From positions 1 through 52,314 of IMG/VR virus record IMGVR_UViG_3300047472_000248: a stretch of 52,314 nt of DNA; one strand, written 5' to 3'. Under the pieces are notes generated by a model. It was not told where the DNA came from and made no database searches. It was given only the letters and a program-made list of their open reading frames with translations. Origin of the DNA: a virus. A program made the translations under genes and the position numbers. Shown here piece by piece: positions 2,437 through 12,514 of this stretch (its first letter is position 1; the number at the start of each line of letters is the position of its first letter).

Positions 2437-3960
2437 CTACGCAGCGAGCCGCGTCAAACCCAGGCCGGCATAGTCGAAGTCGTTCACGATGCCCTCGACG
2501 AAGCCCGGCGTCGCCCGGATGATGGCCTGACGCTCGCGGGCGTGCGTCACCAGGTGCGTGTTGAAGTCGTCGTCGACGTCCACGATGAACGCGACGTTGG
2601 GCAGGCCGTTCTTCTTCTCGCGCAGCCCGCGGCCGATGCGCTGGCGCAGCCCCGTCTCGTCCTTCCCGCCGCCGGCGATCGCGATCATCCCGACGGCCGG
2701 GCAGTCGACGCCGACGTCCATGATGGTGGAGCCGATCAGCACGTCCAGCTCACCGGTGCCGAGCCGGGCGATCTCGCGGTCGCGCTCCTTCTGGTTGCTC
2801 TCGCCCCAGACGAACGCGGCCCGGACACCCACGCGCGTGAGCATGTCCCTCAGGATCTTCCCGTGGTCCTTCTGCTTCACCAGGGCCATGCCCGTCAGGC
2901 CGTAGCGCACCGCGCGTGCCAGCTCGGCGACGAGCAGCTTGTTCCGATACTCGTTCTCGACGATGCCGTAGCGGTAGGCGCCCTGCCAGGGCGTGGAGCG
3001 GTAGAGCCGCTTCGGGCGGTGCTGCTCGGGCACCTTCAAGAACTTGAAGTAGGGCCGCGCCAGGATGCCGCTGTCGATCAGCTGCTTTTCGGTGACGCGA
3101 ATGCCGATCGGGCCGCCGCAGGCCATCAACCGCATGTTCGCTTCGGCATCGTCCTTCATGAAGGACGTCGCGGTCAGCGCCAGGCGGTAGGCGGCGTTCT
3201 TGCACGCATCCATCACCTCGAAGTAGCTGTCGCCGCTGGCCTCGTGCGCCTCTTCTGCGACGACGAACTCGAACATCTCGAGAACCTGGCGGGTCTTGGC
3301 GGCCGTCTCGGGATCGCGCAGCCGAGCGGCCAGCGTCTGCACCATGCCGACGCTGAATTGGGTAATGCGACGGCGCTTTTCGCCGTCCAGGGTGTATTCG
3401 ATTCCCCATTCGCCGTCACCGAGCACCGCGACCGGGGCGCCCGTCAGCGCTTCCATCGCGCGGTGCATCTGATACATCAGAATGCCCCGCGTCGTCAGGA
3501 AGAGCGTGCGCCGGCCGATGCGGGTGTAGGCGAGCCGGGCGATGCGGCTCTTGCCGCCGCCGGTCGCGATCTGCGCGGTGATCTGCCCGTGGCGCACCAG
3601 CTGATCGACGGTGCGCATATGGAAGGCATAGCGCTCCGTCTCGGGGAAGTCGTCGACCTTGGGGCGCTCCGGGCCCAGCGGGGGCGGTAGGGGCTTTTTC
3701 ACCAGCTGGATCTCGTAGCCCGCAGCGCGCAGCCCCTTGGTGACGTGCTGGACGAAGCCCGCGTGAAAGCGCGCGCTGTCGTAGTCGAAGAAGCTCGCGC
3801 GGCCATCCCAGCCCGACCCCGACGCCGAGTAGCCCGGCATGTGCTCGGCGCCCTCGACGCGGTAGCTCAGCAGGCGGTGTGCCTCGAGCAGCGCCGGCTT
3901 GTCGGCATCAAAGATTCGCGCGGTTGTCGCGTTCGCCGCTATTCGGAGGATCTTGGCCAT
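2437..3960 (-). CDS. SF2 DNA helicase (DEAD/DEAH-like, UvsW/SSL2 type)
   Basis: This is a complete superfamily 2 helicase of 507 aa. The Walker A loop is ATGGGKS (132-138), motif II is EEAH (236-239) in place of DEAH, motif III is TATS (263-266), and motif VI is QRIGRGLR (440-447) in the second RecA-like domain. The first ~110 residues form an N-terminal domain of the kind seen before the helicase core in UvsW-like phage helicases. The expected role is ATP-dependent remodelling of branched DNA in replication or recombination. It is the first gene of the leftward unit; a sigma70-like promoter and an operator lie in the divergent gap upstream. Confidence 0.9.
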   Translation of the reverse strand: MAKILRIAANATTARIFDADKPALLEAHRLLSYRVEGAEHMPGYSASGSGWDGRASFFDYDSARFHAGFVQHVTKGLRAAGYEIQLVKKPLPPPLGPERPKVDDFPETERYAFHMRTVDQLVRHGQITAQIATGGGKSRIARLAYTRIGRRTLFLTTRGILMYQMHRAMEALTGAPVAVLGDGEWGIEYTLDGEKRRRITQFSVGMVQTLAARLRDPETAAKTRQVLEMFEFVVAEEAHEASGDSYFEVMDACKNAAYRLALTATSFMKDDAEANMRLMACGGPIGIRVTEKQLIDSGILARPYFKFLKVPEQHRPKRLYRSTPWQGAYRYGIVENEYRNKLLVAELARAVRYGLTGMALVKQKDHGKILRDMLTRVGVRAAFVWGESNQKERDREIARLGTGELDVLIGSTIMDVGVDCPAVGMIAIAGGGKDETGLRQRIGRGLREKKNGLPNVAFIVDVDDDFNTHLVTHARERQAIIRATPGFVEGIVNDFDYAGLGLTRLAA

Positions 3961-4015: not shown

Positions 4016-4045
4016 ATTATCGCCTTACACGTAGCCCGATGACAA
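4016..4045 (-). promoter_or_regulatory. Sigma70-like promoter for the leftward unit
   Basis: On the minus strand: -35 TTGTCA (4045-4040), 18-base spacer, -10 GATAAT (4021-4016). Transcription would start around 4009, within the operator, and read into the helicase gene. The boxes are 5/6 matches to consensus. Confidence 0.5.
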
Positions 4046-4701
4046 CCCTTCGCGTGGTCGACATGCCCCCGGGCAGCTTGAGCCCCAACCCTTGGAACAG
4101 CAACGTGCTGTCGCCCGAGGCGGAAATCAAGCTCGAGAACAGCATCAAGAAGTTCGGCATCTATCGCCCGATCACGTGTCGTGAGCTGGCGGACGGCACG
4201 CTGCAGATCCTCGGTGGCGAGCACACCGCGCAGGCCGCGGTGCGTCTCGGAATTGAACTGGTGCCGGTCGCCAACCTCGGGCGCGTGCCCGACAAGAAGG
4301 CCAAGGCGCTCGGGCTGGCCGACAACGGCCGCTACGGCGAAGAAGACGTGCTCCGCCTGTCGGAGATCTTGAAGGACCTGGCGGGCGAGGACCTCGCCTC
4401 GTTCCTGCCCATGACCGACGAAGACGTCGCGTCGATGTTCGCAATCAGCAATATAGGTCTCGACGACCTCGACTTGCCCGCGGACGACGAAAGATCCGAG
4501 GATCTGCCTGACCTCTCGCGTGGCGCGCCCGAGACGCACACCCTGATGCGCTTCAAGGTGCCGCTCGAGTCGGCCGCCGCCATCAAGCGCGTCATCGACC
4601 ACTTCATGAAGCGGTCGGGCTACGACCGCGACAAGGACGCGCTGGCCGGCGCCGGCATGGCGCTCGCCGACCTCTGCACCCAGATGGAGGCCGGCAAGTG
4701 A
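4039..4701 (+). CDS. ParB/sulfiredoxin-fold domain protein (220 aa)
   Basis: The N-terminal ~110 residues match the ParB N-terminal (ParB/Srx) pattern: PGSLSPNPWNSN, then KFGIYRPITCREL, then the nucleotide/phosphate-binding region LGGEHTAQAAVRLG, where the usual GERR/GHGR reads GEHT, followed by KALGLADNGRYGE. There is no obvious central HTH of plasmid ParB, so this is a phage ParB-like nuclease or regulator rather than a partition protein. The ATG at 4039 lies 25 bases after the operator; further upstream starts would put the operator inside the gene. It overlaps the next gene by GTGA and begins the accessory cluster. Confidence 0.75.
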   Translation: MTTLRVVDMPPGSLSPNPWNSNVLSPEAEIKLENSIKKFGIYRPITCRELADGTLQILGGEHTAQAAVRLGIELVPVANLGRVPDKKAKALGLADNGRYGEEDVLRLSEILKDLAGEDLASFLPMTDEDVASMFAISNIGLDDLDLPADDERSEDLPDLSRGAPETHTLMRFKVPLESAAAIKRVIDHFMKRSGYDRDKDALAGAGMALADLCTQMEAGK

Positions 4702-4901
4702 GCTTCAGCCTCTACGACGAAGGCGACGACTGGAAGTTCGGCTGCTGCAGCGTCTGCAACTACCGCGGCGCGGTGGACTGCGACCGCTGCGAGGACGCCG
4801 ACTGCTTCGAGCTCGATCCGGAGGTCCTCGAGAACATGGACCCGGACCAGCAGCGCCAGATCAAGCGCCACATCCCGATTCGCGCCCTGGAGCCCGCATG
4901 A
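4698..4901 (+). CDS. Cys-rich mini-protein, probable metal binder (67 aa)
   Basis: Cysteines are concentrated in residues 16-36 (GCCSVCNYRGAVDCDRCEDADCF), with two CxxC pairs, the pattern of a small zinc ribbon. The remainder is acidic with a short helix. The start is GTG at 4698, inside a GTGA overlap with the ParB-like gene, so translation is probably coupled. It may act with one of the two adjacent ParB-like proteins (inference). No specific family is assigned. Confidence 0.65.
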   Translation: MSFSLYDEGDDWKFGCCSVCNYRGAVDCDRCEDADCFELDPEVLENMDPDQQRQIKRHIPIRALEPA

Positions 4902-5101
4902 GCGACTTCACGCATGAATCGGTGCACCCCGATGCGTTCAAGCGCCTGGTCGGCGCGACCGTGACGGGGCTGGGTGCGCGCATCACCGAAGACAACCACG
5001 TCGAGATCCTGCTGATGACCGACCGCGGCAGGTGGCTCATCGCTGCCGACGAATCGGGCGAGCCCGACATCTACGAAATCACGGAGCACAAGCCCGAATG
5101 A
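4898..5101 (+). CDS. Hypothetical protein (67 aa)
   Basis: A small beta-rich protein (HVEILLMTDRGRWLIAADESG) of unrecognised family. It starts with ATG at 4898, in an ATGA overlap with the preceding Cys-rich gene, and ends in an ATGA overlap with the second ParB-like gene. The tight packing and ordinary codon use support it as a real gene of the accessory operon. Confidence 0.6.
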   Translation: MSDFTHESVHPDAFKRLVGATVTGLGARITEDNHVEILLMTDRGRWLIAADESGEPDIYEITEHKPE

Positions 5102-5748
5102 AGCCGCTGAAGATCGAACTCTGGGACCCGAAGGACCTGATCCCCTACGAGCACAACTCGAAGAAGCACCCCGACGAGCAGATCGCCAAGATCGCCGAGT
5201 CGACGCAGAAGTTCGGCTGGGACCAGCCGATCGTCGTCGACAAGCACGGGGTCATCATCAAGGGCCACGGCCGGCGCCTGGCCGCGCTGAAGCTGGGCCT
5301 GGCCAAGGTGCCCGTGCTGATCCGTGCGGACCTCACGCCCGACCAGGTGAAGGCCGCGCGCCTGGCCGACAACCGTGCCGCGCTCTCCGACATCGACGCG
5401 AACATGCTGCGCATCGAGATGGCCGAGATCACGGGCATCGACGAGCTGCTGGGCGGCATCTTCGACGACAAGGAACTCGACTTCCTGACGGCCGACCTGG
5501 GCGAGATGAACTCCGGCGCGTTCGTCACCGACATGGACCTCGTGGTCTCCGAGCAGAAGGCAGACCTCGACGGCCGAATCGCCGAAGCAACCCAGAAGCG
5601 CGTCCCGGTGGCCAAGGCCATGGGCGTGAAGGACGTGCCGGCCACTGCCAGCCTGGCGCTTGCCGCCTTCATGGTGCGCATCGAAGCCGAGACCGGCCTG
5701 AAGGGCGGCGACGCGCTCGCGAAGTGGGCCGAGAAGGAAATCGCATGA
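5098..5748 (+). CDS. ParB/sulfiredoxin-fold domain protein (216 aa), second copy
   Basis: This is a clear ParB N-terminal domain in residues 1-110: LIPYEHNSKKHPDEQIAKIA, KFGWDQPIVVDKHG, then IIKGHGRRLAALKLG, the signature of phage ParB-like nucleases and of the ParB domain fused to many phage DNA methylases, then ARLADNRAALSD. The C-terminal half has no methylase motifs. It shares family and architecture with the protein at 4039 but retains the canonical GHGRR loop that copy lacks, so the two probably have different activities. The start is an ATGA overlap at 5098. Confidence 0.8.
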   Translation: MKPLKIELWDPKDLIPYEHNSKKHPDEQIAKIAESTQKFGWDQPIVVDKHGVIIKGHGRRLAALKLGLAKVPVLIRADLTPDQVKAARLADNRAALSDIDANMLRIEMAEITGIDELLGGIFDDKELDFLTADLGEMNSGAFVTDMDLVVSEQKADLDGRIAEATQKRVPVAKAMGVKDVPATASLALAAFMVRIEAETGLKGGDALAKWAEKEIA

Positions 5749-6137
5749 GCGATTTGGCAGGTCCGGAGGCGCCCGTCAGTGCTGACTTTCGCGGTCTGCC
5801 GCGGCGCATCCACATCGGGCACTTCACGTTCCGGATCTACCTCCGGGACGAGACGGGCAACGCAATCCTGGCCGATGCCTGGGGCAACTGCGACTGCCAG
5901 AAGGCCGTCATCGACATCCACAAGGAAACGCCGGCCTGGCTGGCTGCCAACACGGTCCAGCACGAGATCACGCACGCGATCAACTTCGTCTACGGCATCA
6001 CTGACGAGACGACCGAAGAGCAGTTCACCACGCAGCACACGAACGGCCTGATCGAAGTCCTGCTGAAGAACCCGCGCTACGCGACCTGGCTGGCCCGCCA
6101 GCTGCGCGCAATGCGAAAGGAAGCCTCCCATGACTGA
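5745..6137 (+). CDS. HExxH metalloprotease-like protein (130 aa)
   Basis: Residues around 73-77 form HEITH in TVQHEITHAINFVYG, a zincin motif, followed by a downstream Glu pair (TTEEQF) that could give the third ligand. This places it with SprT-like or ImmA/IrrE-like small phage peptidases; the exact family cannot be told. It probably acts on a host or phage protein in the cytoplasm. The start ATGA overlaps the ParB-like gene. A one-mismatch copy of the phage operator (5774-5787) lies inside its first codons, which is unusual for this genome. Confidence 0.7.
   Translation: MSDLAGPEAPVSADFRGLPRRIHIGHFTFRIYLRDETGNAILADAWGNCDCQKAVIDIHKETPAWLAANTVQHEITHAINFVYGITDETTEEQFTTQHTNGLIEVLLKNPRYATWLARQLRAMRKEASHD
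5774..5787. promoter_or_regulatory. Palindromic operator inside a coding region, 13/14 match
   Basis: CGTCAGTGCTGACT lies about ten codons into the metalloprotease gene; one mismatch at the first base. If bound it could block or start transcription in mid-operon. Confidence 0.55.
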
Positions 6138-6312
6138 CCTCCTGCTCAAGGCCCGTCTCGGGCTCGCGCTGCTCATGCCCAAGTGGCTGATCCGCCTGTG
6201 CCTGATCAAGGCCATCGCGATCGCCTCGACCGGCCGCTGGAAGGGCGAGCTCACCGACATCCTCCAACCCCTCACTGCCGACGAGCTGCTCGCTCGCGTC
6301 ATCGCATCATGA
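6130..6312 (+). CDS. Small amphipathic or membrane protein (60 aa)
   Basis: A short protein with a hydrophobic, positively charged N-terminal half (LLLKARLGLALLMPKWLIRLCLIKAIAIA) that could be a membrane anchor or amphipathic helix. The start overlaps the stop of the metalloprotease by 8 bases, and its own stop overlaps the next start (ATGA). Family not recognised; the coding call rests on packing and codon use. Confidence 0.5.
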   Translation: MTDLLLKARLGLALLMPKWLIRLCLIKAIAIASTGRWKGELTDILQPLTADELLARVIAS

Positions 6313-6665
6313 ACCATCGAATCACCTCTAGCCCCTATTGGAACAACGAGACCGACACTCTCGTGTTGCCTTCGGCCGCGCAGGACCCAACGAAGCTGAA
6401 GCACCCCCTCCCTGACACGATCGGAGGCAGTATCGCGGCGATCCACACAGCACTGGCCACCTACGATGCCTCGAAGCTGAAGCACCCGGAGCGCTCGCGG
6501 ACCTACATCTATGCCGATGGCACGACGTTCCGCGTCGACAACGTCACGCACGTCAAGGTCAGTGCCGGCGGTAACCACCGCCTGAAGACTGCTGGCGGCC
6601 ACCTGCACATCGTCGTGCCTGGCTGGCGCGCGATCACGATCGACGCGGACGACTGGTCGTTCTGA
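6309..6665 (+). CDS. Hypothetical protein (118 aa)
   Basis: No family is recognised. The C-terminal half is beta-rich (TYIYADGTTFRVDNVTHVKVSAGGNHRLKT), as in small beta-barrel or Ig-like domains. A short motif is repeated: KLKHPL at about residues 29-34 and KLKHPE at 56-61. The ATG at 6309 overlaps the previous stop and its stop overlaps the ABC-ATPase start, so it is translated within the same operon. Confidence 0.55.
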   Translation: MNHRITSSPYWNNETDTLVLPSAAQDPTKLKHPLPDTIGGSIAAIHTALATYDASKLKHPERSRTYIYADGTTFRVDNVTHVKVSAGGNHRLKTAGGHLHIVVPGWRAITIDADDWSF

Positions 6666-7375
6666 TGACCACCTACACCATCAGCAAGCGGTTCAAGACC
6701 CGCGTGCAGCGCTCCGACCGCGTGCTCGAGATCGCCGAGGCCTTCGGGATCGGGCTCGAGGACAAGGAATTCGTCGTCTTCGACGACCTGAAGCTCGAAG
6801 TCGAGAAGGGCGATGTCGTCTACATCACCGGCCAGTCGGGCGGGGGCAAGTCCGTGCTGCTGCGCGAGCTTTCCTCGCAGATGGCCGCTGAGGGCAAGTC
6901 GGTCGTGAACCTGGATCATGTCGAACTGCTCGACAAGCCGCTCATCGACCAGATCGGCACCGACACGAACGACGCGATCCGCATCCTGTCGATCGCCGGC
7001 ATCAACGACGCCTACCTCTACGTGCGCCGGCCGAGCGAGCTGTCGGACGGCCAGCGCTACCGCTTCCGCCTGGCCAAGGCCATCGAGACCAAGGCCGACG
7101 TCTGGGTCGCCGACGAGTTCCTGGCCGTGCTGGACCGCACCGCGGCGCGCGTCATCGCCTTCAGCCTGCAGAAGACGGCACGGCGCGCCGGCGCGACTGT
7201 GATCGTCGCTACCACCCACACCGACATGGTAGACGACCTGGCGCCCACCATCTACATCGAGAAGCGCTTCCGCGAGAAGGTGCGCATCGAAGCGGGCGGC
7301 GAGCTGCGGAAGCTCCTGGACGCGGGCCCCGTGACGCGCGACCAGGCTTACAGCCTGATCCTGGCGAGCGTCTGA
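6665..7375 (+). CDS. ABC-class ATPase, COG2401-like, without transporter
   Basis: This soluble ABC ATPase has 236 aa. Walker A is GQSGGGKS (56-63), the signature is LSDGQ (126-130, for LSGGQ), Walker B ends in D150-E151, and the switch His is H185 (ATTHTD). There are no membrane segments and no permease gene nearby. The N-terminus (FKTRVQRSDRVLEIAEAFG) resembles, from memory, the ATPase part of COG2401 proteins, in which an ABC ATPase is fused to a predicted acetyltransferase. A matching acetyltransferase-like gene lies 1.6 kb downstream (8957-9880), so this looks like the split form. The ATPase may power or gate acylation of a nucleic acid; this is inference. Confidence 0.85.
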   Translation: MTTYTISKRFKTRVQRSDRVLEIAEAFGIGLEDKEFVVFDDLKLEVEKGDVVYITGQSGGGKSVLLRELSSQMAAEGKSVVNLDHVELLDKPLIDQIGTDTNDAIRILSIAGINDAYLYVRRPSELSDGQRYRFRLAKAIETKADVWVADEFLAVLDRTAARVIAFSLQKTARRAGATVIVATTHTDMVDDLAPTIYIEKRFREKVRIEAGGELRKLLDAGPVTRDQAYSLILASV

Positions 7376-7587
7376 TGATGAAAGCCTTCTTCATTGCCGC
7401 GGTGCTGGCCCTTGCCGGTTGTGCCGTCGAGCCCACGCGGCCGAACGGCATGCCGGCGCACCACGTCGACCCGCGCTACCTGGTCGGCTGCAAGGACCAA
7501 AAGATCACCGTGCTGATCGATGCCGATATGGCCGGCCGGCTCGAGCTTGCCATCGACCCTGACTTCTGCAGCGAGAAGGACATCTGA
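7375..7587 (+). CDS. Small lipoprotein (70 aa)
   Basis: An N-terminal signal peptide with a lipobox (AVLALAGC, Cys16) predicts lipidation and an envelope location. The mature part is about 55 residues with two further Cys (39 and 65), possibly a disulphide. The start ATG at 7375 overlaps the ABC-ATPase stop (ATG at 7378 is an alternative). It is unusual among cytoplasmic enzymes; it could act in superinfection exclusion or simply be a moron gene. It is not Rz1, which is found in the lysis region. Confidence 0.7.
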   Translation: MMKAFFIAAVLALAGCAVEPTRPNGMPAHHVDPRYLVGCKDQKITVLIDADMAGRLELAIDPDFCSEKDI

Positions 7588-7808
7588 TGATGAAGGTCTA
7601 CCTCGCGGCCTGTCTGGTCATCCTACTGCTGGTGGTCTTCCTGGCCACTCTCGATGTCCCGCCGCTGCCCGCCGGCCCGACCGAGCAGGTGCCGGCTATC
7701 TCCATGCCCGAGATCGAGCAGCACCTGCGCCGGCGCGTCAACTGCGGCCCCGATATCGGCTCCCTCTTCAACGCAGACCTCTGCATTCAACAAGGACACC
7801 TCCGATGA
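7587..7808 (+). CDS. Small membrane-anchored or secreted protein (73 aa)
   Basis: A hydrophobic N-terminal segment (residues 4-22, VYLAACLVILLLVVFLATL) is followed by a Pro-rich stretch and a short periplasmic-type domain with two Cys. Without a clear cleavage site it may stay anchored in the inner membrane. It overlaps the lipoprotein gene stop and the start of the Ntn-hydrolase gene, and may partner the lipoprotein across the envelope (inference). Confidence 0.6.
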   Translation: MMKVYLAACLVILLLVVFLATLDVPPLPAGPTEQVPAISMPEIEQHLRRRVNCGPDIGSLFNADLCIQQGHLR

Positions 7809-8260
7809 CTGTCGTCGCGTGGGATGGCAAGACCCTGGCGGCCGATCGCCAGCTGACGTGCGGCACGCGCCGCCAGACGACCCTGAAGGTCTTCAAGCTA
7901 CCTGGGGCTGCCCTGATCGGCTGCAGCGGCTCTGGGCCGCTGATTGCGCTCTTCATGGCATGGTTCAACAACGGGGCTCTGCTCGACCAGTGGCCGAGCC
8001 AGCTGAAGGACGACGATGGTGGGTTTGCAGCCGTCGTGATCAAGCCGAACGACCCCGTCGTCTACACCTACTTCAACACGCCCGTTCCGAGCCAGTGCCG
8101 GGATCGCTACTACGTCATCGGCAGCGGTTCGGACTTCGCCTATGCGGCGATGCTGATGGGCAAGACGGCGGCCGAAGCGGTGGCGTTCACCAACGAGATC
8201 GACGTCTACTGCGGCGGCGGCGTGGACACGGTGAGCTTCGAGGACGAGGTGCCGGCATGA
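7805..8260 (+). CDS. Proteasome/HslV-like Ntn hydrolase (151 aa)
   Basis: The N-terminus MTVVAWDGKTLAADRQLT follows the proteasome beta/HslV pattern: removal of Met would expose Thr2 as nucleophile, Asp14 matches the conserved Asp17, and Lys28 in TTLKVFKL matches the Lys33 region. Further beta strands (GAALIGCSGS, YYVIGSGSDFAYAAMLMG) fit the alpha-beta-beta-alpha Ntn fold. At 151 aa it is shorter than HslV (about 175). No HslU-type unfoldase is nearby. The start ATG at 7805 has AAGGA upstream. It could be a peptidase or an amidase; the substrate is unknown. Confidence 0.75.
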   Translation: MTVVAWDGKTLAADRQLTCGTRRQTTLKVFKLPGAALIGCSGSGPLIALFMAWFNNGALLDQWPSQLKDDDGGFAAVVIKPNDPVVYTYFNTPVPSQCRDRYYVIGSGSDFAYAAMLMGKTAAEAVAFTNEIDVYCGGGVDTVSFEDEVPA

Positions 8261-8550
8261 CCTACGACGAGATCGTCGCGGCGTCGAAGGCCGAACCCCA
8301 GCTGATCCTCTTCTACGGCCAGGACTGCGCGCCCTGCGACCAGCTGAAGGCCTCGATGGCGGTGCTGCGCGTCGAGCGCCACATGGACGTGCACGAGCTG
8401 GCCGTTGCCGACCACCTGGCGGAGGCCCGCGCGCTCGGCCTGCGCTCGGTTCCCACGCTCGTGCTGCACGACGCCGGCGTGACCCGCCAGTCGAGCGGCG
8501 CAAAGTCCGTCTGGGAACTCGACGCGCTGCTGAAGAGCTGGGGCGTCTGA
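8257..8550 (+). CDS. Thioredoxin/glutaredoxin-like protein (97 aa)
   Basis: A thioredoxin fold with active-site CAPC in LILFYGQDCAPCDQLK and the cis-Pro region RSVPTLVLHD. No signal peptide is seen, so it acts in the cytoplasm as a thiol-disulphide oxidoreductase. Phages use such proteins to support ribonucleotide reduction or as polymerase cofactors, but no reductase or polymerase is in this window. It overlaps both neighbours by ATGA or TGATG and belongs to the accessory operon. Confidence 0.85.
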   Translation: MTYDEIVAASKAEPQLILFYGQDCAPCDQLKASMAVLRVERHMDVHELAVADHLAEARALGLRSVPTLVLHDAGVTRQSSGAKSVWELDALLKSWGV

Positions 8551-8960
8551 TGGACTACGACCGCATCCAGGCCAGCATGCTTGCCATGATCGAAGAGGCA
8601 GAGCGACGCGAACCGCCTCTGGCGAAAAGCGCACTGCCGGGCCACATCTTCGCGCTCACCTTTCAAACGGTCGCGATCAACCCTGGCCGGCGCACCGGCA
8701 AGACCGAGTTCATTCAGCGCTGCCTGCAGAGCGATGCGAATGCGATCGCGGTCGTGCCGCTCTCGAGCTGGCGCTCGCAGGTCTATCGCTATCGTCGCAA
8801 CGTCTTCACGCCCAACGAGCTGTCGAATCTGCGCGGCCGCAGGCTGAGCCGGGTGTTCATCGACGAGCCGAGCGCGGTGTTCAAGGCAATGTCCTGGCAC
8901 AAGGTCCATGACGCGCTCTGGACGACCCGTCCGAGCCTCTACGTGCTCCTGGGGGAATGA
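8550..8960 (+). CDS. Small P-loop ATPase-like protein (136 aa)
   Basis: It holds a Walker A-like loop (GRRTGKTEF, about residues 46-54) and a Walker B-like strand (VFIDEPSAV), the two halves of a RecA-like core, but nothing of the C-terminal parts of a helicase or terminase. The P-loop resembles GRRWGKT of the terminase at 11189. It is therefore a minimal ATPase core: perhaps a domain that works with a partner, or a truncated relative of a packaging ATPase. It is packed between the thioredoxin-like and acetyltransferase-like genes. Confidence 0.65.
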   Translation: MDYDRIQASMLAMIEEAERREPPLAKSALPGHIFALTFQTVAINPGRRTGKTEFIQRCLQSDANAIAVVPLSSWRSQVYRYRRNVFTPNELSNLRGRRLSRVFIDEPSAVFKAMSWHKVHDALWTTRPSLYVLLGE

Positions 8961-9880
8961 TGAACGAAGACCTCGTCATCGAGCGCCGCCAGGTGCCCAA
9001 GAACCACACGCTGAGCCTGCTGCAGGACATCCGCGTGGAGTGGGGCACCAAGGCCGACTGGGGCGCGCTGTGCGAGCTGCACTACAAGGGCCACACCCTG
9101 GCGGCTGGATCGCGCTTCATGCGCTGCGTGCTCGACACGGGCACCGGCGCGCCGCAGCTGATCGGCGTGATGGTCTTCGCCAACCCGCAGATCCTCGACA
9201 GCGGGCGCAACGAGGTCTTCCCGCGCCTGAAGCCCAACGTCAATGGCCGGGACAACCGCACGATCAACCAGTCGCGCGTGGCATGGATCAACAAGAACAT
9301 GACCTGGAACAACCGCACGGTGCTCGACACCATGTATCGGTCGGCCGGGATCGCGTATCGCTTCAAGAATCTGGCTTACCGCCTCTACTGCTGCCGGCAC
9401 AAGCTGCGCTATGTCGAGAGTCGCAGCTCGATGGGCCGCTTCAACCCCTTCAGTTCGCGCTCGGGCATGCGGTTCATCAAGCCCAAGGCCGCCAATGCGC
9501 TGGGCAAGGGCGTGCAATTCATGACCGCGAACTTCAAATCCGCGCCCTACGACGTGGTTGCGATCCGCGACGAGATCGAATCGACGCCACCCGAGCAGCA
9601 AGCGCTGCTGGTGCAGCGGCTTCGCGAGTTCTACTGGAAGAACTCGAGCATGGAGAAGAGCGGCGACAAGATGGACCTGGGCATGAGCCGGGTCAACGAG
9701 CTGCCGCTCGACTACATCCTCAAGCAGACCATGCAGCTGGTCTTCTCCGCGACGATCTACTGGATCTGGGAGAACCCCGACCGCGGCCGCACGCTGCCCG
9801 AGACGCTGCCAATCCTGGCCTTCGATCGCCAGGGCCTCTACGAACCCCTGAACCTGGAGGGTCTGGCATGCGCCGACTGA
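8957..9880 (+). CDS. GNAT-like acyltransferase, partner of the ABC ATPase
   Basis: The order of motifs fits the acetyltransferase part of COG2401-type proteins: VEWGTKADWGALCELHYKG (28-45), a strand LIGVMVFANP (68-77), a substrate or CoA-binding stretch SRVAWINKNMTWNNRT (106-121), and ESRSSMGRFNPFSSRSGMRF (154-173), matching the NPF-AGM end motif. LHY next to a GV-F strand also recalls Mom, the Mu DNA-modification enzyme. It has 307 aa with an extra C-terminal region of ~130 residues. The expected role is acyl transfer to a nucleic acid, driven or gated by the ABC ATPase at 6665. The assignment is by remembered motifs and needs a profile search. Confidence 0.6.
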   Translation: MMNEDLVIERRQVPKNHTLSLLQDIRVEWGTKADWGALCELHYKGHTLAAGSRFMRCVLDTGTGAPQLIGVMVFANPQILDSGRNEVFPRLKPNVNGRDNRTINQSRVAWINKNMTWNNRTVLDTMYRSAGIAYRFKNLAYRLYCCRHKLRYVESRSSMGRFNPFSSRSGMRFIKPKAANALGKGVQFMTANFKSAPYDVVAIRDEIESTPPEQQALLVQRLREFYWKNSSMEKSGDKMDLGMSRVNELPLDYILKQTMQLVFSATIYWIWENPDRGRTLPETLPILAFDRQGLYEPLNLEGLACAD

Positions 9881-10227
9881 CCGCCAACCAGGTCGAGCTG
9901 CTGAGCTTCGTGCGCGCGCCCGCGCCGGCCACGGCCGCCGACCACGGGCACATCGACTTCGACCAGATGCTGGACGCCATGTCCTGGCAGCCGTCGAAGC
10001 AGGCCGCCCACTTCTCGATCCGGGCGCTGCAGAAGCGCGGGCTGCTGGAAAAGCTCCCAGGCCTGCAGCTTCGACGTGGACGTCACCGGGTCTGCTTCCG
10101 GGTCACCGAGGCCGGCCTGAAGGCTCTGAACGGTTCCGTTCCGGAGCCCTCCGAACCGTCTCTGGTGGACCAAAGTCAGCCGGAACTTCCCGACCCGGGT
10201 GTCTCCCTGGAGGTGTTCGAAGACTGA
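9868..10227 (+). CDS. Winged-helix DNA-binding protein (119 aa)
   Basis: Residues about 32-90 look like a MarR- or replication-initiator-like winged helix: MLDAMSWQPSKQAAHFSIRALQKRGLLEKL is a helix-turn-helix, and the basic hairpin RRGRHRVCFRVTEAGLKAL is the wing. The C-terminal ~30 residues are Pro/Glu/Ser-rich and probably disordered. A good Shine-Dalgarno (GGAGG, 9856-9860) precedes ATG 9868. As one of the few free DNA-binding proteins in the window, and the last gene before the late control region, it is a candidate reader of the phage palindromes. The gene contains one half-site near its end. Confidence 0.65.
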   Translation: MRRLTANQVELLSFVRAPAPATAADHGHIDFDQMLDAMSWQPSKQAAHFSIRALQKRGLLEKLPGLQLRRGRHRVCFRVTEAGLKALNGSVPEPSEPSLVDQSQPELPDPGVSLEVFED

Positions 10228-10529: not shown

Positions 10530-11192
10530 ATGAGCGAGACCACCGACAAGAAGCCCGCGTCGAAGTCCCGGGTCGGCCAGAAGGGCTACGGCGGTCGCAA
10601 GAAAGGCTCCCGCTCCCTGACCCCGGCAGAGAAGGCCGCAGCAGCCGCTGCATGGCGCGCCGGCGAGGTCACCCTGGCCCAGCTCTCGGAGAAATACAAA
10701 AAGCGCCCTGAGACCTTCTCGCGGCTCTTCGGGAAGATGGGCATCAAGAAGGGCGAGGCTGCCGAAGAGGTCGGTCGCAAGGTGACCGCCCAGATCGAAG
10801 CGCGCGCAGTCACGGACGTCGAGCAAACGCTGCAGCAGATAGCCGAGACGAAGAAGACGTTCGTGGGCATGCACAACGCCCTGGCGCGTCTCGCGTTCAC
10901 CGAGATCAAGAAGGCGGTCGAGGCCAAGGTGCCCCTGTCGCAGCTGCGCTTGGCCATGCAGACGCTCCAATCGGCCAGCGCGGTCATCAGCAAGTCCCGG
11001 GAGGAGATCTACACCCTCCTGCAGATCGAGAAGCACGACGACAACCTTGGCGATGACGACCTGCCGGAGCTGCTCGTGCGCGAGCTGACCGCCGGCGAGG
11101 TGAAGCAGCTGGCAGAGCAGGACGACGAAGAGAAGGCCCTCACCGACGAGCTCAATGCCGATGGCATGAACCTGGACGAGGCGCCGGAGTGA
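10530..11192 (+). CDS. terS: Terminase small subunit
   Basis: The small packaging subunit recognises phage DNA and hands it to the large subunit. The 220-aa protein has a basic, disordered N-terminus, a helix-turn-helix-like region (residues about 30-65, with VTLAQLSEKYKKRPETFSRLF), long helices in the middle for oligomerisation, and an acidic C-terminus typical of a large-subunit contact. ATG 10530 has GGAGG 9 bases upstream. It overlaps the large subunit gene by GTGA. Identification rests on HTH content and position. Confidence 0.8.
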   Translation: MSETTDKKPASKSRVGQKGYGGRKKGSRSLTPAEKAAAAAAWRAGEVTLAQLSEKYKKRPETFSRLFGKMGIKKGEAAEEVGRKVTAQIEARAVTDVEQTLQQIAETKKTFVGMHNALARLAFTEIKKAVEAKVPLSQLRLAMQTLQSASAVISKSREEIYTLLQIEKHDDNLGDDDLPELLVRELTAGEVKQLAEQDDEEKALTDELNADGMNLDEAPE

Positions 11193-12514
11193 AGGTTCGG
11201 CCCCCAGAGGAGCTGGTCGGCACCGAGCTGGCCAGTTCGATCGCCGCTGCCACGGACGAGATCCGGGAGCAGTTTCGCGCGCCGAAGAACACGCTCTTCC
11301 TGCACCAGAAGCAGATGGAGGTCTACCAGACCCCGAAGCGCTTCCGGGTGGTGTGCGCCGGCCGCCGGTGGGGGAAGACGCAGCTCGCGAAGGTTTCGAT
11401 CATCCGCTTCGCCCGGGTGAAGAAGCGGCTGATCTGGTATGTGGCGCCGAGCTACCGCATGGCGCGCCAGATCATGTGGCCGGAGCTGCTCGAGGCGATC
11501 CCCAAGCGCTGGATCTACAAGGTCAACGAGACCATGTTGACGATCCGGCTGATCAACGGCACGCGGATCGAGCTCAAGGGCGCCGACAACCCCGACGCGC
11601 TGCGCGGGGTGGGCATCCACTTCCTGGTGATGGACGAGGTCCAGGACATCCACCCCGAGGCCTGGACGAAGGTGCTGCGCCCGACGCTGGCATCGACCGG
11701 CGGCCACGCGCTCTTCATTGGCTCGCCGAAGTCCTACAACTTCCTCTACGACCTCTACCAGCTCGGCCAGCGCGACGACATGCCGGCGTGGGAGTCGTGG
11801 CAGTTTCCGACCATCACCTCGCCCTTCATCCCGAAGCACGAGATCGACGCCGCGCGCGGCGACATGGACGAGAAGAGCTTCCGGCAGGAGTTCGAGGCCT
11901 CGTTCGAGTCGATGTCCGGGCGCGTCTACTATCCCTTCGACCGGCACATCCACGCGGCCAAGCCGCGGCCGTTCAACCCGAACCTGCCGCTGCTCATCGG
12001 GCAAGACTTCAACATCGACCCGATGTCGGCCTGCGTCTTCCAGAGACAGGACAACGGCGAGATCTGGGCGGTCGACGAGATCAGCCTGCCGGCGTCGAAC
12101 ACCGACGAGATGTGCGACGAGCTGGAGCGCCGCTACTGGCGCTTCATCGACCGCATCACGAACTACCCCGACCCGGCCGGCGCGACGCGCGGGCACCAGC
12201 GGGGCGAGTCCGACATCGACATCATGCGGGAGCGCGGTTTCAAGCGGAACGTGTATCACAGGAAGCACCCGCCGGTGGCTGACCGCGTGAATGCCGTCAA
12301 CCGCATGCTGAAGACTGCGGACGGCCAGATCCGCCTCTACGTCGACCCGCGCTGCAAGAAGCTGATCGAGTCCTTCGAGCAAACGCTCTACGTGCCCGGC
12401 GGCCGCGAGGTCGACAAGAGCGCCAGCATCGAGCACATGGCCGATGCTGCCGGCTACTTCATCCAATACGCATACCCGACCCGCAAGTTGGAGCTGTTGG
12501 GCGTCTCCCTGTGA
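11189..12514 (+). CDS. terL: Terminase large subunit
   Basis: The packaging motor: ATPase plus nuclease. The 441-aa protein has Walker A GRRWGKT (58-64), Walker B FLVMDE (145-150), a coupling-type TGS-equivalent IGSPKS (178-182), and an RNase H-like nuclease domain starting at LIGQDFNID (269-277, metal ligand D273) with further acidic residues (WAVDEIS; MADAAGY near the C-terminus). The length is normal. The start is GTG 11189, overlapping the small-subunit stop. It drives DNA into the prohead through the portal encoded next. Confidence 0.93.
   Translation: MKVRPPEELVGTELASSIAAATDEIREQFRAPKNTLFLHQKQMEVYQTPKRFRVVCAGRRWGKTQLAKVSIIRFARVKKRLIWYVAPSYRMARQIMWPELLEAIPKRWIYKVNETMLTIRLINGTRIELKGADNPDALRGVGIHFLVMDEVQDIHPEAWTKVLRPTLASTGGHALFIGSPKSYNFLYDLYQLGQRDDMPAWESWQFPTITSPFIPKHEIDAARGDMDEKSFRQEFEASFESMSGRVYYPFDRHIHAAKPRPFNPNLPLLIGQDFNIDPMSACVFQRQDNGEIWAVDEISLPASNTDEMCDELERRYWRFIDRITNYPDPAGATRGHQRGESDIDIMRERGFKRNVYHRKHPPVADRVNAVNRMLKTADGQIRLYVDPRCKKLIESFEQTLYVPGGREVDKSASIEHMADAAGYFIQYAYPTRKLELLGVSL

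Follow-up and report, generated by a model that had tools for sequence, protein, structure and literature searches.

A ParB-like, ABC ATPase and GNAT-fold gene module beside the terminase of SSU5-type phage-plasmids: a candidate system for acylation of phage DNA

We found that a gene module encoding two ParB-like proteins, a soluble ABC ATPase, a putative GNAT-fold acyltransferase and a winged-helix-like protein belongs to the core gene set of a lineage of phages and phage-plasmids, ~100-120 kb in size, that includes SSU5, nickie, RHEph10 and their relatives. Our favoured reading, to which we give a probability of roughly 60%, is that the module uses ATP to acylate phage DNA under the guidance of its ParB-like proteins, perhaps ahead of packaging. 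The window, the whole stretch of DNA analysed, spans 52,314 nucleotides (positions 1 to 52,314 of IMG/VR record IMGVR_UViG_3300047472_000248).

Organization of the locus

All module genes were located on the + strand and the majority have overlapping starts and stops, in agreement with an earlier sequence-only reading that had placed the named genes in one operon; the two ParB_N domains, the soluble ABC ATPase and the GNAT-fold protein were all present. Three gene calls were corrected: ParB2 starts at 5098, the ATG of the metalloprotease-like gene is at 5745, and the last gene, extending to 10227, encodes a separate winged-helix-like protein (9868-10227). The features of the locus are the following.

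2437-3960, - strand: UvsW-like SF2 helicase, divergent, at the module border (labelled UvsW helicase in phage Cyrano)
4039-4701, + strand: ParB1, ParB-like protein (PF02195, phrog_723, synteny)
4698-4901, + strand: Cys-rich protein of 67 aa with CCxxC and CxxC, cargo (sequence)
4898-5101, + strand: 67-aa protein with no assigned role, cargo (sequence)
5098-5748, + strand: ParB2, ParB-like protein of the type fused to phage adenine methyltransferases (PF02195, phrog_930)
5745-6137, + strand: zincin-like protein with HEITH, variable cargo (sequence, phrog_1233)
6309-6665, + strand: 118-aa protein, cargo (no family above cut-off)
6665-7375, + strand: soluble ABC ATPase, core (ABC_tran, phrog_293, motifs, fusion-profile match)
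7375-7587, + strand: small lipoprotein-like protein, cargo (lipobox-like ALAGC)
7587-7808, + strand: small membrane protein, cargo (sequence)
7805-8260, + strand: HslV-like Ntn hydrolase, variable cargo (phrog_1040)
8257-8550, + strand: thioredoxin-like protein (CAPC), variable cargo (PF13098, PF00085)
8550-8960, + strand: P-loop-like protein of 136 aa (GRRTGKT, VFIDE), cargo (phrog_2586)
8957-9880, + strand: putative GNAT-fold acyltransferase, core (phrog_886, AlphaFold2, structure comparison)
9868-10227, + strand: winged-helix-like protein, core, overlapping the end of the GNAT gene (phmmer)
10530-11192, + strand: DNA-binding protein in the small-terminase position (annotated homologues)
11189-12514, + strand: terminase large subunit (TerL), directly downstream of the module (tblastn to annotated terminases)

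Conservation of the module

The order helicase / ParB1–ParB2–ABC–GNAT–winged helix / DNA-binding gene–TerL was observed in every locus with enough flanking sequence. Among 113 GNAT loci, the ABC ATPase was found in 107, the misses being loci that start too close to the GNAT gene, and TerL in 108. The gene in the small-terminase position, for which there are homologues annotated as DNA-binding, had a counterpart in 99 of the loci. In 85 loci the helicase gene was seen upstream of ParB1, on the - strand, a count limited by flank length. For the winged-helix-like protein we obtained 89 phmmer matches (window included) among the 112 sequences examined, with the homologue in Cyrano labelled 'DNA binding domain containing protein'. 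Each of the 30 phage records whose TerL is related (at least 54% identity; the next TerL was at 44%) contained the GNAT gene. Escherichia phage PhiR41_1, which has E. coli K-12 as its host, and Pseudomonas phage nickie are among the carriers of the module. The cluster had been described as accessory, a view contradicted by this synteny and the 30 of 30 phages, which place ParB1, ParB2, the ABC ATPase, the GNAT and the winged-helix protein in the core of the lineage.

Beyond phage records, GNAT was observed in 905 plasmid records and in 241 of 5,426 complete E. coli genomes, there always on plasmids, and relatives exist as plasmids of ~110 kb. The E. coli megablast counts of 33 for the SSU5 TerL and 241 for GNAT are not comparable, as the terL of relatives may fall below the identity limit. 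A fused homologue was found in one of 299 host genomes (one phylum), and because of this rarity we do not regard the gene as a bacterial housekeeping gene. PADLOC returned weak or partial ABC matches (mad3, mad8) and a ParB-methyltransferase match, with no defence system assigned. An SSU5-like plasmid has been reported to hinder incoming DNA, in an account that does not mention the ParB, ABC or acetyltransferase genes (PMC8969562).

The zincin-like (HEITH) gene was present in 32 of the 113 loci; its product matched phrog_1233, which has no assigned function (E=1.4e-12), and reached 13.3 bits against SprT-like, below the cut-off. The thioredoxin-like gene, with PF13098 and PF00085 above gathering score, was present in 34 loci, and the Ntn/HslV-like gene (phrog_1040, E=1.3e-33) was detected by tblastn in two, one of these being the window's own record. 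No homologue was found in the 113 loci for the Cys-rich 67-aa protein (4698) or the 67-aa protein at 4898, nor in other loci for the lipoprotein-like (7375) and membrane (7587) proteins. The 118-aa protein (6309) had no Pfam or PHROG family above cut-off, and the 136-aa P-loop-like protein matched phrog_2586, also with no assigned function (E=1.4e-8). Absent from most related loci, the Ntn, zincin, thioredoxin and Cys-rich genes were rejected as parts of a mechanism, and the earlier suggestion that the proteases and thioredoxin belong to the system gives way to one of variable cargo across the 113 loci.

ParB-like proteins

Both ParB-like proteins scored above the Pfam gathering cut-off for PF02195, ParB1 (4039-4701) with 29.2 bits against 26.3 and ParB2 (5098-5748) with 27.2 bits, and they matched phrog_723 (E=9.7e-50) and phrog_930 (E=4.6e-77), respectively. 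ParB2 also matched the N-terminus of the phrog_498 DNA methyltransferase (E=2e-36) and PADLOC MTase_II (E=2.5e-25), and the N-termini of phage DNA methyltransferases were among the domain families closest to it. The same type of ParB domain is fused to phage DNA methyltransferases, precedes ABC-GNAT fusions, and was once observed before a Mom gene, in Microbacterium phage Appa, where the ParB gene directly precedes it. That ParB domains keep company with DNA-modifying enzymes, as had been proposed, is borne out by these fusions, by the phrog_498 and MTase_II matches and by Appa. The phrog_498 methyltransferases share with the module a ParB domain of the ParB2 type, and examples of this kind have other DNA methyltransferases as neighbours, with one stand-alone relative near a terminase. 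They differ in the modifier, which is a SAM methyltransferase there, whereas the module has an acyltransferase-type GNAT and an ABC ATPase.

The two proteins could instead be partition proteins of a phage-plasmid, with neighbours unrelated to them, and the ParB_N scores and the life of relatives as ~110 kb plasmids would suit such a role. We consider this highly improbable. The module proteins share the N-terminal ParB domain (PF02195) with canonical ParB partition proteins, but they are short (220 aa for ParB1 and 216 aa for ParB2) and the N-terminal domain alone was recognised by Pfam in both. ParA is not adjacent, as the operon is without one and that of the record lies at 61818-62477, about 56 kb away, and the fused ABC-GNATs of small phages retain a ParB partner.

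ABC ATPase and ABC-GNAT fusions

The ABC ATPase (6665-7375) matched ABC_tran (E=8e-13) and phrog_293 (E=5.6e-47) and retains all ABC motifs intact: Walker A (GQSGGGKS), signature (LSDGQ), Walker B (VWVADEF) and H-loop (TTHTD). None of the ORFs in the operon encodes a permease. Using hhalign, its profile matched the N-terminal half of ABC-GNAT fusions from unrelated phages (E=2.7e-29), and the GNAT profile matched the GNAT half (E=2.2e-8, probability 95%). A ParB-like gene precedes the fusion in Leptospira LE4, Pasteurella Pmp13, Gordonia Jace and Arthrobacter EastWest, and a terminase was observed just downstream in LE4, Pmp13 and AnClar; in P12024S, vB_VmeM-32 and pT24 no annotated ParB or terminase adjoins the ABC-GNAT. 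The two proteins had been taken for the separated halves of COG2401. Their match to both halves of the phage fusions upholds the pairing, while the link to COG2401 itself is the depositors' annotation of Cyrano, which names MK0520, rather than a COG search, and the paper texts searched contained no mention of COG2401.

Acylation of a DNA base by an ABC-coupled GNAT is not a new idea, having been predicted by Iyer et al. 2013 and restated in PMC7824862. The module resembles these COG2401/MK0520-like systems in its soluble ABC ATPase and GNAT, with profile homology to both halves, and its ABC ATPase matches that of pT24, given in the published work as a phage example of ABC-coupled GNATs. Unlike the fusions, the module keeps the two halves as separate genes, accompanied by two ParB-like genes and one for a winged-helix protein, at a constant place next to the terminase, and its GNAT has a long helical region (~residues 180-263) beyond the fusion-aligned stretch. 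What appears to be novel is the arrangement itself, with ABC and GNAT split and two ParB-like genes, as a constant core component of SSU5-type phage-plasmids.

The GNAT-fold protein and its likely substrate

The GNAT-like protein (8957-9880) had no match in Pfam, matched phrog_886 (E=2.7e-95), and returned nothing up to E=10 in a direct sequence search of the PDB. Its AlphaFold2 model (pLDDT 91.6) showed a clear GNAT fold when compared with PDB structures (best Z 11.8), confirming the earlier assignment. The proposed likeness to Mom of phage Mu also stands at the level of structure: Mom (8bv8) came second in the Foldseek ranking and third when matches were ordered by Z (Z 11.4, rmsd 4.2) and gave the longest aligned stretch among the matches listed, 171 residues. 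Invariant positions of the GNAT family include H42-Y43, motif A (YRSAGIA) and SSM..FNPF, with HYK observed in 112 of 112 homologues, and the H-Y pair that follows the first helix is conserved without exception in the family, in the ABC-GNAT fusions and in six aligned Mom proteins. The match to the Mom profile was weak (hhalign probability 19%, E=0.0012), and the SFAD...Y motif of Mom is not conserved in the GNAT family, which has SSM..FNPF and, in the corresponding stretch, neither an invariant D nor an invariant Y. The protein resembles Mom in structure, but it does not qualify as a Mom by sequence profile. Mom of Mu, whose modification is N6-carbamoylmethyladenine, shares with the module protein the GNAT fold, the H-Y pair and its place among phage genes, as well as a preceding ParB in the case of Appa; it differs in having no ABC partner, no confident profile match (19%) and the SFAD...Y motif that is absent here; for the module, no Com-like regulator was noticed.

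The GNAT fold, taken here from a predicted model, does not by itself reveal the substrate. NAT10, an RNA enzyme, was among the Foldseek matches, and in NAT10/TmcA an ATPase is paired with a GNAT that acetylates cytidine in RNA, an arrangement that counts for an RNA target (tRNA, rRNA or mRNA) acylated in the course of infection, the ABC ATPase being the energy-using partner. The basic GNAT (pI ~9.5) would suit any nucleic acid. We nevertheless judge RNA an unlikely target, as the constant ParB partners and the position beside the terminase point to DNA, Mom aligned over more residues than any other match listed, and DNA methyltransferases are accompanied by ParB2-type domains.

Protein N-acetyltransferases scored as high as Mom against the model (Z 10-12), and protein acetyltransferases, RimI and Nat enzymes for instance, account for many of the nearest structures (Z 10-11). 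A protein target, such as the terminase, a head protein, host RNA polymerase or a defence protein, would make the module a regulator of packaging or takeover; the terminase always adjoins it, and PMC7824862 provides a precedent in Rac of phiKMV, which acetylates RNA polymerase. This too seems doubtful, since it leaves the ParB, winged-helix and ABC partners unexplained, along with the ParB context common to DNA methyltransferases and Mom.

Proposed mechanism

In the acylation of phage DNA that we favour, the GNAT would bind acyl-CoA through its motif-A loop and move the acyl group onto an exocyclic amine of a DNA base in a Mom-like manner. The permease-less ABC ATPase may dimerise on ATP, by which the GNAT would gain access to DNA, and both ParB-like proteins, together with the winged-helix protein, would bind phage DNA and direct the modification, comparable to the ParB domains found with phage DNA methyltransferases. 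The location of the module directly before the terminase suggests late marking of the DNA, before or during packaging. The mark could confer resistance to restriction in the next host or allow phage DNA to be told from host DNA. We found no measurement of modified DNA, which counts against acylation. A more specific version, in which the ParB-guided, ABC-driven acyltransferase writes a new base modification just before packaging and the mark gates packaging or re-entry, is put forward tentatively, at somewhat less than even odds.

Significance

SSU5-type elements rank with the most frequent phage-plasmids, and antibiotic-resistance genes occur on some of them (PMC9600943). If their virion DNA contains an acylated base, this would help explain their passage through restriction barriers. 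It would also give a biochemical home to a predicted, unproven modification system, add a second acyl modification of DNA alongside Mom, and extend DNA hypermodification to phage-plasmids of ~110 kb that number in the hundreds in Klebsiella, E. coli and Acinetobacter. RefSeq and PHROG currently give the genes of the module labels ('hypothetical protein', 'ABC transporter ATP-binding subunit', 'DNA methyltransferase') that inform little or mislead, and these can already be put right.

Gene content and order of the cluster

The window represents bases 1-52,314 of a virus record of 116,314 bases. From position 4039 on, the cluster genes are all on the plus strand and tightly spaced or overlapping, with a divergent helicase gene upstream of ParB1 and, downstream, a DNA-binding gene in the small-terminase position followed by the genes for the terminase large subunit (TerL) and the portal. 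The gene content read from sequence alone (two ParB-like proteins, an ABC ATPase and a GNAT-like protein, with their named neighbors) was confirmed; both ParBs scored above the Pfam gathering score and the ABC protein contains the complete set of motifs of a working ABC ATPase.

Genes of the cluster
4039-4701 (+), ParB1
after ParB1 (+), Cys-rich 67-aa protein
between the Cys-rich protein and ParB2 (+), second 67-aa protein
5098-5748 (+), ParB2
5745-6137 (+), zincin-like protein with HEITH
between the zincin-like gene and ABC (+), two small genes, no assigned role
6665-7375 (+), ABC ATPase
between ABC and the Ntn hydrolase (+), lipoprotein-like protein, then membrane protein
7805-8260 (+), Ntn hydrolase, HslV-like
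8257-8550 (+), thioredoxin
8550-8960 (+), P-loop-like protein
8957-9880 (+), GNAT-like protein
9868-10227 (+), winged-helix-like protein, overlapping the GNAT gene end

The GNAT-like protein belongs to phrog_886 (E=2.7e-95) and had no match in a Pfam search. It contains no ABC motifs, so the family label "ABC transporter ATP-binding subunit" is inappropriate for it. RefSeq gives this label to the GNAT of phages nickie and RHEph10 (our L001 and L002) and "DNA methyltransferase" to their ParB2, both unfit.

Conservation within the phage lineage

We collected 113 loci through the GNAT, drawing on collections of phages, metagenomic viruses and bacterial genomes. Gene order (helicase on the minus strand, ParB1, ParB2, ABC, GNAT, DNA-binding gene, TerL, portal) was constant wherever the contig was long enough, the DNA-binding gene being too diverged for recognition in some loci. 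Since these loci had been found through GNAT, we also made the converse query from TerL, and the 30 phage records with TerL identity of at least 54% were exactly the 30 carrying GNAT (next TerL, 44%). The lineage takes in SSU5, nickie and RHEph10. This conservation contradicts the sequence-only description of the cluster as accessory. The zincin-like, thioredoxin and Ntn hydrolase genes, proposed as members of the system, were observed in only 32, 34 and 2 of the 113 loci, respectively (one of the two being the window's own record), and are therefore regarded as cargo between core genes. The winged-helix-like gene is a conserved and hitherto unnamed module part, observed 3' of GNAT in at least 88 other loci. 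The 136-aa protein at 8550-8960 (P-loop-like GRRTGKT and VFIDE; phrog_2586, function unassigned) was present in 2 of the 113 loci, including the window's own record.

GNAT was also observed in 905 plasmid records, mostly of ~110 kb among the matches listed and chiefly from Klebsiella, Escherichia, Acinetobacter and Enterobacter. Its SSU5 form was found in 241 of 5,426 complete E. coli genomes, every time plasmid-borne and, among the matches listed, annotated as "hypothetical protein".

Relationship of ABC and GNAT to fused phage proteins and Mom

Searching with the window's ABC protein retrieved single proteins of ~365-410 aa, ABC N-terminal and GNAT C-terminal, from unrelated phages (Leptospira LE3 and LE4, Pasteurella Pmp13, Nonlabens P12024S, Gordonia Jace and AnClar, Arthrobacter EastWest, Vibrio vB_VmeM-32). 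In profile comparisons made with these phage ABC-GNATs, the window's ABC family matched the N-terminal part of the fusions (E=2.7e-29) and its GNAT family the C-terminal part (E=2.2e-8, probability 95%); because the two families match opposite parts, the proposal that the proteins at 6665 and 8957 are a split pair holds with respect to these phage fusions. The link to COG2401 comes from phage Cyrano, whose depositors annotated its GNAT as "MK0520 protein, ABC-type ATPase fused to a predicted acetyltransferase domain". Among 299 genomes of a single phylum, just one held a fused homologue, so this is no general housekeeping enzyme of bacteria.

ABC and GNAT occupy overlapping frames in our records of Lactococcus P335 (L123, 4001-5055), Streptococcus Javan523 (L129, 4001-5070) and Oenococcus Vinitor-27 (L147, 2501-3561), where the GNAT frame, with its conserved HYL motif, is shifted by -1 and coincides with the end of the ABC frame. 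At the switch, P335 and Javan523 have in common a GGTTTTTC run as well as a CCCCCAC run, which suggests a programmed frameshift that would yield both ABC and ABC-GNAT.

An AlphaFold2 model of GNAT built from 46 homologues (mean pLDDT 91.6) supported its predicted GNAT-like nature, and its listed PDB matches were GNAT proteins in every case (best Z 11.8). Mom of phage Mu (8bv8) matched this model with Z 11.4 across 171 residues, the longest among the matches listed; Z values differing by 1 or less were counted as tied, and fold alone is therefore insufficient to call the protein a Mom. The suggested Mom likeness was thus borne out in structure, while the sequence-profile match was weak (probability 19%). 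The two proteins share an H-Y dipeptide, functionally important in Mom, which was paired in the local alignment and invariant in 6 of 6 aligned Mom proteins, the fused GNATs and 112 of 112 GNAT homologues. Homology, fold, motifs and conservation of the module are thereby on the demonstrated side, together with the locus comparison above.

Genomic context and proposed function

ParB2 matches a domain found at the N-terminus of phage DNA methyltransferases (phrog_498, E=2e-36; PADLOC MTase_II, E=2.5e-25), and its phage relatives are often annotated as part of an adenine-specific or other DNA methyltransferase. The same kind of ParB was observed immediately 5' of ABC-GNAT fusions (LE4, Pmp13, Jace, EastWest), of ABC genes (P335, Javan523, Vinitor-27) and of a Mom gene in Microbacterium phage Appa. 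One ParB type thus accompanies three kinds of enzyme, two of them known DNA-base modifiers, in agreement with the expectation that ParB-like domains neighbor DNA-modifying enzymes. The module also lies just upstream of the terminase in LE4, Pmp13, P335, Javan523 and AnClar; no annotated ParB or terminase-type neighbors were found beside the ABC-GNATs of P12024S, VmeM-32 and pT24.

The simplest reading is DNA-base acylation by a ParB-directed ABC and GNAT. The GNAT would transfer an acyl group from acyl-CoA to a DNA base, the ABC dimer would spend ATP on opening or gripping DNA, and modification would be steered to phage DNA, shortly ahead of packaging, by the ParB proteins and the winged-helix protein; substrate, acyl group, role of ATP and benefit of the module are what we infer. 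Acylation of RNA or of protein by the GNAT are rival readings, and the genomic context points to DNA. A role of ParB1 and ParB2 in plasmid partition is unlikely, because both are short, without further recognized domains, and a ParA-type ATPase is elsewhere in the record (61818-62477, minus strand), ~56 kb away. The distant ParA is consistent with a phage-plasmid that has a separate partition locus of its own.

Relation to predicted systems

According to Iyer et al. (2021), earlier work of theirs identified a GNAT paired with an ABC ATPase and predicted it to make an uncharacterized acyl modification of a DNA base, with Tenacibaculum phage pT24 as an example (PMC7824862). Our search with the window's ABC protein retrieved pT24. 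The earlier prediction, their reference 136, is reportedly Iyer et al. 2013. Literature searched short of most subscription journals contained no experimental work on the system and no paper tying it to SSU5-type phage-plasmids. The module differs in form from the predicted systems: its ABC and GNAT are encoded by separate genes, it includes a pair of ParB-like proteins as well as a winged-helix protein, and its place next to the terminase is constant. In pT24 itself (our L116, 3899-5071), one in-frame stop breaks the ABC-GNAT frame after ...TWNGVPV, and the region is annotated as two ABC genes.
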